Below are positions 35,897 to 38,593 of a stretch of 62,611 nucleotides of DNA, piece by piece. A program made the position numbers and the translations under genes. The DNA is from Candidatus Galloscillospira stercoripullorum. Lineage in GTDB: Bacteria > Bacillota > Clostridia > Oscillospirales > Oscillospiraceae. The stretch spans positions 1 to 62,611 of the forward strand of contig DVLB01000089.1 of the NCBI GenBank assembly GCA_018715695.1, in the 5' to 3' direction. Under the pieces are notes generated by a model, which worked only from the letters and a program-made list of their open reading frames with translations, did no database searches and had not been told where the DNA came from. The first letter of the stretch is position 1; every line of letters starts with the position of its first letter.

Positions 35897-36646
35897 TCAG
35901 GCCTTGATTACATGCACGCCGGCGGCGGTGAGCAGTTGCTCCTGCCGCTGGGGAAGGGCGTCGTCGGTGATGAGGGTGTGGAGGGTGGAGAGGGGGAAGA
36001 TGGTGGTGGTGGAGCTGCCACCCACCTTGTCCGAGGTGGTGAGGACGATCATCTTCCTGGCGGAGTGGGCCATGTACCGGGCCACCTCGGCCCGGAAGAG
36101 GTTGATGGCGGTGACGCCCATCTCGGCGCTGACGGCGTCTGCACCGATGAAGCACTTGTCCACCGAGAACTGGCTCAGGCACAGCTTGGTGAGAGGACCC
36201 ACGTTGGTCTCGGCGTCGTGCTGGAAGGAGCCCCCCAGAAGCACGATGTCCAGGGAGGGGCAGTCCCGGACGAAATTGGCCAGGAACACCGAATTTGTGA
36301 TGATGGTTACCCCCCGCTTGGCGGCCAATTCCCGAGCCAGCAGGGAGCAGGTGGAGCCGGTCTCCACAATGACAGTCTCCCCGTCGCTGACCAGACTGGC
36401 GGCAGCCTGGGCGATGCGCAGCTTGGCCTCGTAGTGGTTCCACATCCGGGTGGAGATGTCGTAGCCGCTGACCACGGGCACCGCGCCGCCGTGGGTGCGC
36501 TTGAGCACCCCCCGCTCTTCCAGCTTTTTGAGGTCCTGGCGAACAGTGACCAGAGAGACGCCCAGGGCGTCGGTGAGCTCGGTGACCGAGACCTTGTCCT
36601 GGGTCTGGAGCATATCGATAATGGCAAGCTGCCGCTGATTGAACAA
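35897..36646 (-). CDS. DeoR/GlpR family transcriptional regulator
   Basis: RQLAIIDMLQTQDKVSVTELTDALGVSLVTVRQDLKKLEERGVLKRTHGGAVP; TTG 36646 after GGGGGG likely start. Confidence 0.9.
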   Translation of the reverse strand: MFNQRQLAIIDMLQTQDKVSVTELTDALGVSLVTVRQDLKKLEERGVLKRTHGGAVPVVSGYDISTRMWNHYEAKLRIAQAAASLVSDGETVIVETGSTCSLLARELAAKRGVTIITNSVFLANFVRDCPSLDIVLLGGSFQHDAETNVGPLTKLCLSQFSVDKCFIGADAVSAEMGVTAINLFRAEVARYMAHSARKMIVLTTSDKVGGSSTTTIFPLSTLHTLITDDALPQRQEQLLTAAGVHVIKA

Positions 36647-36698
36647 GCAAAGCCCCCCGTTTCCGTGGCAAGTATTTTGGCTATTATAATGTCTGCTG

Positions 36699-36936
36699 AA
36701 TAAACCGCAATGCGGTTTATTTGCGCGGCATTGCCGCGCACTTGATTGAAAACGGCTGATTTCAGTTGTTTTCAATCAAGTGCAACATTGTTGCAATGCG
36801 TATCCTCACACAAGTGCCATGGCACTTGTGTGAGTGGTGCAAGGGTTTTGGGCGAAAACGGTACAAAACCCTTGCACTTGAACAAATCTATTTTGCATGG
36901 AAAGCCTTGGCTTTCCATGCGTGCCGCTTTGTTCAG
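36699..36936. repeat. Dense array of seven consecutive inverted repeats (candidate structured ncRNA or palindromic element)
   Basis: Dyads at 36699-36721, 36722-36740, 36738-36783, 36781-36795, 36805-36834, 36837-36877 and 36879-36935 (with inner 36895-36920); see findings. Confidence 0.85.
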
Positions 36937-37105
36937 TACGCATTATTATATCAAATCCTGCCCGCCGGCGCAACGGGGGGAACGGGAAACCGGCACGGCG
37001 GCGCTTTTTGTAGAAAACGCCAGGGGGATTTTATACCTGCCCTCTTGTGTGGACGGAGAGTTTGCCGTATACTGACAGAGACAGAACAGAAAGGAGCGTG
37101 GCACA

Positions 37106-38593
37106 ATGGGCGCAAAGCAGGAGCTTATGCAGCTGCAGAACGGCAGCGACGTGCGGGGCGTGGCCCTGGCCGTGGAGGGGGGCAAGAGCGTCAACCTGAC
37201 GGAGGAGGCGGTGTGCCGCATCGCCGAGGGCTTTGTCTGCTGGCTCAGGGCCGCTACGGGAAAGGAGCATCCGCGCATCGGGGTGGGGCACGACTCCCGG
37301 CTCACGGCGCAGTCTCTTAAGCGGGCGGCCATCCGGGGGCTGAGAGCCCAGGGGGCGGAGGCCGAAGACTGCGGCCTGGCGTCCACCCCGGCCATGTTTA
37401 TGGGCACCGTGTTCCCCGAGACCGGCTTTGACGGCTCCATTATGCTCACGGCCAGCCACCTGCCCCGTGAGCGCAACGGAATGAAATTCTTTACCCCCGC
37501 CGGAGGCCTTGACAAGGGCGACATCCGCTCGGTGTTGGAGCTGGCGGAAGGGCTGGAGGCCGTCCAGGGTCCGGCCGAGGCGCCTACCTGCGCCCTGATG
37601 GACTTGTACGCCGCCTCCCTGCGGCGCAAGATTGTGGAGAGCGCCGGAGCGGGGGAGCGGCCGCTGGAGGGGCTTCACATCCTGGTGGACGCGGGCAACG
37701 GCGTGGGAGGCTTTTTCGTCACCGACGTGCTGGAGCGCCTGGGGGCGGACTGCACTGGCAGCCAGTTCCTGGAGCCTGACGGTAACTTCCCCAACCACGC
37801 GCCCAACCCGGAGGACAAGGCCGCCATGGCCTCCATCCGACAGGCGGTGCTGGCGCATAAGGCAGACCTGGGCATTATCTTCGATACCGACGGGGACCGG
37901 ATGTCCGCTGTCCTCTCCGATGGGGAGGAGGTCAACCGTGACGCCATCATCGCCATGATGGCCGCCATCCTGGCTCCTGACTACCCCGGCGGCACCATTG
38001 TCACCGACTCGGTGACCAGCGACCGGCTCACCGATTTTCTCACCTCCCTGGGGCTCAGGCACCGCCGATTCAAGCGGGGGTATAAGAACGTCATCAACGA
38101 GGCCATCCGGCTGGGCACCGAGGGCGTTTGCGCCCCGCTGGCCATTGAGACCTCGGGCCACGGTGCCATGAAGGAGAACTACTACCTGGATGACGGGGCC
38201 TATATGGCGGTGAAGCTCATCATCGCCGCCGCCCGGATGAGGCGGGAGGGCAAGAAACTGGAGTCCCTCATCGCCGCCCTGCCCCCGGCGGGGGAGGCCA
38301 TGGAGCGGCGCATCCCCATCTCGGGGACGGATACTGCAGCCTACGGCGCCCAGGTGCTGGAGACCTTCCGTATCCGTGCGGCCCAAGCGGGGTATATTCT
38401 GGCTGAGACCTGCGAGGGGGTACGGCTGACCTTCCCCGGGGAGGGCTGGCTGCTGCTGCGCCTCTCCCTCCACGATCCGCTGCTCCCCCTCAATGTGGAG
38501 AGCACGCAGCCCGGCGGCTGCGCAGCGCTGCTGGCTCGGGCGAGAGAGCTGCTGCAAGGCTTTGAGCGGCTGGACCTGGGGGCCCTGGACTGA
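37106..38593 (+). CDS. Phosphomannomutase/phosphoglucomutase family phosphohexomutase
   Basis: IMLTASHLPRERNGMKFF (catalytic Ser loop), DTDGDRMSAV metal loop, ETSGHGAMKENYYLDDGAYMAVKL. Confidence 0.9.
   Translation: MGAKQELMQLQNGSDVRGVALAVEGGKSVNLTEEAVCRIAEGFVCWLRAATGKEHPRIGVGHDSRLTAQSLKRAAIRGLRAQGAEAEDCGLASTPAMFMGTVFPETGFDGSIMLTASHLPRERNGMKFFTPAGGLDKGDIRSVLELAEGLEAVQGPAEAPTCALMDLYAASLRRKIVESAGAGERPLEGLHILVDAGNGVGGFFVTDVLERLGADCTGSQFLEPDGNFPNHAPNPEDKAAMASIRQAVLAHKADLGIIFDTDGDRMSAVLSDGEEVNRDAIIAMMAAILAPDYPGGTIVTDSVTSDRLTDFLTSLGLRHRRFKRGYKNVINEAIRLGTEGVCAPLAIETSGHGAMKENYYLDDGAYMAVKLIIAAARMRREGKKLESLIAALPPAGEAMERRIPISGTDTAAYGAQVLETFRIRAAQAGYILAETCEGVRLTFPGEGWLLLRLSLHDPLLPLNVESTQPGGCAALLARARELLQGFERLDLGALD

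Follow-up and report, generated by a model that had tools for sequence, protein, structure and literature searches.

A Small Hairpin-Rich Element of Oscillospiraceae, Probably Mobile and Inserted into the -10 Box of Promoters

An array of contiguous hairpins in Candidatus Galloscillospira stercoripullorum (GenBank assembly GCA_018715695.1, contig DVLB01000089.1, positions 1 to 62,611; this whole stretch of 62,611 nucleotides is called the window below) is most probably one copy of a small non-coding mobile element, which would be moved by an enzyme encoded elsewhere and would insert into the -10 box (TATAATA) of sigma-A-type promoters, duplicating the box. We put the probability of this reading at roughly 85%. 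It draws on exact boundaries, 7-bp duplications, empty sites, the position of the copies relative to -10 and -35 boxes, a bias in orientation, and the compensatory conservation of the hairpins, all of them features of the DNA sequence. An earlier sequence-only reading of the window had described seven contiguous hairpins and proposed three candidates: a structured non-coding RNA, a palindromic mobile element, or a multi-site regulatory region. The second of these is borne out by dispersed copies whose boundaries are exact, by target duplications of 7 bp, and by empty sites. The same reading had reckoned with a local pile-up of palindromes should there be neither covariation nor a multi-copy family, and the array clearly has both.

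The Hairpin Array and Its Surroundings

The seven dyads all lie where they had been placed, within 36699-36936 of the window, and the array folds far beyond chance on both strands (RNAfold z = -12.8 on the plus strand and -11.8 on the minus strand, reached in 0 of 100 shuffles). The hairpins described earlier are real, and their extent can be refined: the alignment of copies sets the element at 36689-36943, adds a 7-bp repeat on each side, and reveals a long-range pairing besides the seven hairpins (Table 1). Copies begin with ATGTCTGCTGAATAAA and finish with TTTGTTCAGTACGCAT, and in the alignment the similarity of the flanks ceases there. In the 53 aligned copies, stop codons interrupt nearly all reading frames, and no ORF was found.

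Table 1. The window copy, its hairpins, and its neighbours (positions in the window)
Feature	Position	Strand	Remarks
Element	36689..36943	+	255 bp, ATG...CAT, ATGTCTGCTGAATAAA ... TTTGTTCAGTACGCAT, without gene; boundaries from 20, then 53 aligned copies; 68-98% identity to copies in the same genome; ORF check
Left 7-bp target duplication, TATTATA	36682..36688		from alignment of copies
Right 7-bp target duplication	36944..36950		TATAATA on the minus strand: -10 box for deoR
Left terminal inverted repeat, ATGTCTGCTGAATAAA	36689..36704	+	
Right terminal inverted repeat, ATGCGTACTGAACAAA	36928..36943	-	12/16 identical to left repeat
Hairpin 1	36698..36722	+	adjoins left end; 97.6% of cells paired; double changes in 6/11 pairs
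Dyad 1 arms	36699-36709/36711-36721		
Hairpin 2, TGCGCGGCA/TGCCGCGCA	36722..36740	+	
Dyad 2 arms	36722-36730/36732-36740		
Hairpin 3	36738..36783	+	double changes in 15/18 pairs
Dyad 3 arms	36738-36759/36762-36783		91% complementary
Hairpin 4, TGCAACA/TGTTGCA	36781..36795	+	family shares only its CATTG/CAATG core
Dyad 4 arms	36781-36787/36789-36795		
Hairpin 5, perfect 30-bp palindrome	36805..36834	+	14/14 pairs covary across family
Hairpin 6, GTGCAAGGGTTTTG/CAAAACCCTTGCAC	36837..36877	+	double changes in 12/17 pairs
Dyad 6 arms	36837-36850/36864-36877		
Hairpin 7	36879..36935	+	outer stem TGAACAAA/TTTGTTCA adjoins right end and nests GCATGGAAAGCC/GGCTTTCCATGC
Dyad 7 outer arms	36879-36886/36928-36935		nested inner dyad 36895-36906/36909-36920
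Long-range pairing, 5' arm AATGCGTA	36795..36802	+	pairs with 36937-36944; encloses hairpins 5-7
Long-range pairing, 3' arm TACGCATT	36937..36944	+	overlaps right end
-35 hexamer TTGCGC of deoR promoter	36968..36973	-	17 bp from -10 box; read from sequence
DeoR-family regulator gene	35897..36649	-	its promoter received the insertion; Pfam DeoRC and HTH_DeoR; start codon provisional
Phosphoglucomutase/phosphomannomutase gene	37106..38593	+	divergent neighbour; Pfam PGM_PMM I-III

Pfam domains agree with the earlier naming of the flanking genes as a DeoR-type regulator and a phosphohexomutase. To the right of the window copy, on the minus strand, the deoR promoter reads TTGCGC-N17-TATAAT (36945-36973), and a TGA (extended -10) immediately precedes the TATAAT. 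A simple promoter scan called no promoter at this site, its rule being at least four of six matches in the -35 hexamer, of which TTGCGC has three. The 7-mer GCACTTG/CAAGTGC had been counted five times in the window copy, and the count is right; as a feature of the family, however, the five-fold repeat was dropped, since the window copy is the only one of the 53 aligned copies with more than one such 7-mer.

Copies and Distribution

About a dozen copies are present in the same genome. A search with positions 36690-36945 as the query gave 32 matching pieces spread over many contigs, including five full-length copies at 86-100% identity; the other pieces are copies at 68-71%, two copies without hairpin 3 (L006 and L007), and fragments. 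Among the adjoining genes are those for a dihydroorotase, a glutamyl/glutaminyl-tRNA synthetase, an isochorismatase-family enzyme, a GlmS-type amidotransferase, RuvC, and a GreA-type factor, and they have no common function. Two diverged or partial copies stand face to face within about 150 bp (L014 and L312, G000:C103:6360-6580).

Beyond this genome, a genome of a different genus in the same family (G023) carries seven copies at 70-77%. The pattern of the first hairpin was found in 27 of 301 genomes, representing 19 of 106 genera of the family, and the pattern of the right end has 103 matches in GTDB, nearly all in Oscillospiraceae (Flavonifractor, Pseudoflavonifractor, Intestinimonas, and Oscillibacter among them) or unnamed Clostridia MAGs. 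A match in a Gastranaerophilales MAG lies within a gene and was set aside as chance. The right-end pattern has no match in 2.9 million viral contigs, and a phage element was rejected within that collection. In total, 122 copies were collected from related Oscillospiraceae, lengths of 60-320 bp being eligible, and 99 of them measure 241-258 bp. This sharp peak in length suggests that the mobile form would be the whole array.

In the Flavonifractor-type genome G023, a 242-bp copy lies in the promoter of an apparent dnaA, a gene named by eye (L055:1454-1695). It has apparent counterparts, L126 (G205) and L282 (G142), so that at least one further species carries a similar copy with similar flanks, and an insertion upstream of what seems to be an essential gene thus appears to have been retained.

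Evidence of Insertion

The 7-mers that flank the copies form a direct repeat with the consensus TATAATA, and they vary from copy to copy (TACAATA, TAGAATA, TAAAATA, TATGATA, TATTATA, TATACTA, TAATATA). The left and right 7-mers are nevertheless identical in 88 of 120 cases and agree in at least six of seven bases in 111 of 120; where the left 7-mer departs from the consensus, it is identical to its right partner in 35 of 59. For a nearly identical set of 64 that still included false short pairs, 10,000 shuffles gave 3.4 matches on average and never more than 10. "Elements" of 43 bp proved to be such false pairs, which the palindromic left hairpin had produced, and the final counts leave them out. 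The identity between left and right flanks is 0.86-0.90 over the seven bases, compared with about 0.3 beyond them.

To find empty sites, the two flanks of each of three copies in G023 were joined and compared with 20 genomes of that genus. At one site (L045), the joined flanks matched the genome G325 over 521 bp (1-521) at 96%, and the junction itself is ungapped over 123 bp at 97.6%, with a single TATAATA. The same site is likewise empty in other species at 82-90%, and a second site derived from G023 is empty in both G325 and G335. The sister species G001 has the deoR/phosphohexomutase pair and, in the corresponding position, a deoR promoter, TTGCAA-N17-TATAAT, without the element. Three observations show insertion: the flanking 7-mers vary yet match between left and right, the empty promoters of related genomes have a single 7-mer, and the same element occurs beside unrelated genes. 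A point against the mobile-element account is that the terminal repeats agree at only 12 of 16 positions.

The -10 Box as Target

A TTG at a spacer of 16-18 bp is found in 51 of 83 left flanks of forward insertions, compared with 8 of 83 on the opposite side. The reverse insertions, to which the window copy belongs and whose 7-mer is TATTATA or alike, mirror this arrangement, with 10 of 20 against 1 of 20. Taken together, 61 of 103 insertions have a TTG 16-18 bp upstream, as against 39 of 130 TATAATA-like sites that lie elsewhere in these loci, outside long ORFs (P = 1e-5), and a comparison with all such sites agrees. The TG of an extended -10 is similarly enriched (37/103 versus 20/130, P = 4e-4). 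Sense copies outnumber antisense ones by 83 to 20 (P = 3e-10), and downstream of the sense copies, at 27-240 bp and thus inside a limit of 250 bp, a start codon with a ribosome-binding site was recognized in 51 of 64 cases by a gene-start finder that is crude. These flanks identify the -10 box of sigma-A-type promoters as the target. It should be mentioned that the enrichment of the -35 box may in part reflect the survival of insertions rather than their choice of site. Since the 7-mer is duplicated, a -35/-10 promoter remains beside the element.

Are the Hairpins Kept as DNA or as RNA?

Covariation was assessed in 53 copies less than 90% identical to one another, over eight helices with the long-range pairing included. 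In these helices, 93.6% of the cells are paired and 64 pairs show double changes; 437 double-change cells were observed, against 107 after shuffling and 55-110 with slid partners. The pairing of 36795-36802 with 36937-36944 is part of the lowest-energy fold, with 96.9% of its cells paired. On this alignment, all the hairpins are kept across the copies by paired changes. The kinds of mismatch bear on what is being kept. In the main helices, G-U mismatches number 153 and A-C mismatches 128 (P = 0.15, with related copies counted as independent), and the sense copies alone give 98 and 90; in 14 tRNAs from the same loci, the corresponding numbers are 22 and 0, although ARAGORN itself favours such pairs. 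Because the two kinds are about equally frequent, the dyads look as though they are maintained as DNA and not as one RNA strand. In other words, the near-equality points to a constraint on DNA dyads, or to the correction of palindromes by template switching, rather than to RNA, with the caveat that neutral decay after insertion would be likewise symmetrical and could mask a preference on the RNA strand. In an automated screen, covarying hairpins of this kind would come out as an RNA family, and the comparison of G-U with A-C is a useful caution.

The dyads might owe their upkeep to mutation and not to selection, if template switching during replication corrects imperfect palindromes and the hairpins have no function; this explanation is compatible with mobility, and it predicts equal numbers of G-T and A-C mismatches. 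In a mini-form in G103 (L342:232-275), the left end has been doubled together with the 7-mer beside it, the second copy being inverted and almost perfect (TAGAATG...CATTCTA). Template switching typically yields such a product, which suggests that the mini-form arose in this way rather than by transposition. Template switching, however, leaves unexplained the insertion itself, the fixed length of about 255 bp, and the same order of hairpins across genera; moreover, the long-range pairing has double changes in three pairs with its arms about 135 bp apart. We regard it as an unlikely account of the hairpins.

Less likely still is that the array is a transcribed 5' leader (a regulator, a stabilizer, or a riboswitch-like structure) that is kept for its RNA fold and was spread by mobility. 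The abundance of compensatory changes speaks for it, as does the position of the sense copies just downstream of a complete promoter and ahead of a start codon and ribosome-binding site, and at several genes, some of them orthologous in three species, truncated left ends persist right behind the -10 box. Sense-oriented copies should indeed be transcribed as 5' leaders. On the other hand, the balance of mismatches described above shows no clear excess of G-U over A-C, about a fifth of the insertions are antisense, the neighbouring genes have no common function, and the Rfam covariance models gave no match up to E = 1 in positions 36000-37500 of the window. A structured non-coding RNA is therefore not retained as the primary reading.

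The position of the array between two divergent genes, a regulator among them, could have hinted at a multi-site regulatory region specific to the deoR/phosphohexomutase pair. Both this idea and a chance pile-up of palindromes have a negligible probability and are refuted by the dispersed copies and the empty site: the same array occurs next to unrelated genes, and the sister species lacks it in the orthologous intergenic region.

Short Forms and the Search for an Autonomous Partner

Among the 103 right-end matches in GTDB, no transposase-bearing relative with these ends was found, nor did one turn up in a complete genome of 4.3 Mb that has several copies. A search of 10 genomes, the complete one included, with both ends and up to two mismatches also gave no autonomous partner; many of the genomes covered are drafts. 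Orphan ends (unpaired right ends in GTDB and left ends without hairpin 1) proved on inspection to be truncated or decayed copies or chance matches, not autonomous partners; one of them, L147, is a chance match inside a pdxJ-like gene, named by eye, in another phylum.

Two short forms have matching 7-mers, L343 with 44 bp and L184 with 93 bp. The former (G101:C1:2895061-2895118) retains both ends between TATAATA repeats, upstream of an apparent asparaginyl-tRNA synthetase gene (identified by eye). Such forms may mean that the interior is dispensable for mobility and that the ends suffice. Solitary left ends (ATGTCTGCTGAATCA...) also follow immediately on a -10 box, TATAATA or TATGATA, that has a -35 box, the rest of the element being absent, at L330, L331, L332 (in the complete genome G101), L333, L336, L337, L339, and L340, of which L337, L339, and L340 appear to be orthologous across three species. 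They are either relics or represent the retention of a short motif close to the promoter. A short, unrelated-looking sequence, L291 (G003:C13:16993), begins with the same 16 bases and seems to have a TAAAATA repeat, and is possibly another family served by the same enzyme.

A Possible Mechanism

Under the mobile-element reading, a DDE-type transposase would act in trans and insert the element in either orientation, most often in that of the promoter. Through a staggered cut of 7 bp, the -10 box would be duplicated, leaving the struck promoter with a -35/-10 pair at one end of the element, and the transcript would start at that end, cross the hairpin array, and enter the gene. Real promoters would be preferred over any TATAATA, and the dyads would be required for mobility as a DNA structure, the extruded hairpins being recognized or folded during transposition. 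More speculatively, promoters might be recognized as such, through RNA polymerase, the sigma factor, or the -10 region as melted in the open complex, with the DNA hairpins essential to mobility; we find this combined proposal doubtful. If it is true, this is a bacterial transposon that settles where a transcription unit begins and restores the -10 box through duplication, a bacterial counterpart of promoter-targeting retrotransposons.

The family strikes one functional motif, and duplicating that motif seems to spare the struck gene, which retains what looks like a complete promoter and acquires a leader full of hairpins. Housekeeping genes of common gut bacteria would also receive structured leaders some 250 nt long: in the genome studied here, those for the GlmS-type amidotransferase, RuvC, the glutamyl/glutaminyl-tRNA synthetase, and the GreA-type factor, and probably dnaA in Flavonifractor. 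This bears on promoter annotation and on expression studies.

Comparison with Known Systems

In the open-licence literature, we found no description of the family or of targeting to the -10 box. Elements of the IS200/IS605 or REPIN type, which depend on a Y1 transposase, insert without target duplication; the element, which has a clear duplication of 7 bp, was not assigned to them. The yeast retrotransposons Ty3 and Tf1 integrate at promoters through the transcription machinery and encode an integrase; the likeness is in working principle only, Ty3 and Tf1 being eukaryotic retroelements. The present family offers a test of whether a bacterial mobile element can use the transcription machinery for targeting.

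Among bacterial repeats, bcr1 and its relatives in the Bacillus cereus group are interspersed sequences of 100-400 bp with features of mobile elements, tied to a TTTAT motif (PMC6542083). They share with our element the confinement of a Bacillota repeat to one taxonomic group. In place of TTTAT, however, the element has a flanking 7-bp repeat, TAnnATA, that varies between copies around the consensus TATAATA, and it was not assigned to the bcr1 type. The BOX and RUP elements of pneumococcus are, like the element, small, tightly folding, multi-copy, and modular: BOX consists of boxA, boxB, and boxC modules, of which boxB can be missing or repeated, much as hairpin 3 can be missing here. BOX and RUP are transcribed within operons, and in the parts of the source consulted, targeting of the -10 box is undescribed for them (PMC3049150).

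The closest parallel is with bacterial MITEs, which are shorter than 500 bp, carry no gene, have terminal inverted repeats and a target duplication, lie in intergenic regions, and fold strongly; QMITE2 of Coxiella, for example, has direct repeats of 7-9 bp, and the Correia elements of Neisseria are another example (PMC10969869). The element is likewise shorter than 500 bp, multi-copy, and without a gene, with imperfect terminal inverted repeats within the range of about 4-30 bp and a 7-bp target duplication. It differs in that it targets one functional motif, the -10 box with its -35 context, whereas MITEs are usually characterized by the bases that they duplicate and not by a functional target. 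It differs also in its interior, seven hairpins with compensatory change across genera, and in that a parent IS, an autonomous element with the same ends whose transposase moves the MITE, was not found. On the sequence evidence, it is best filed as a MITE-like element with what would be a new target specificity.
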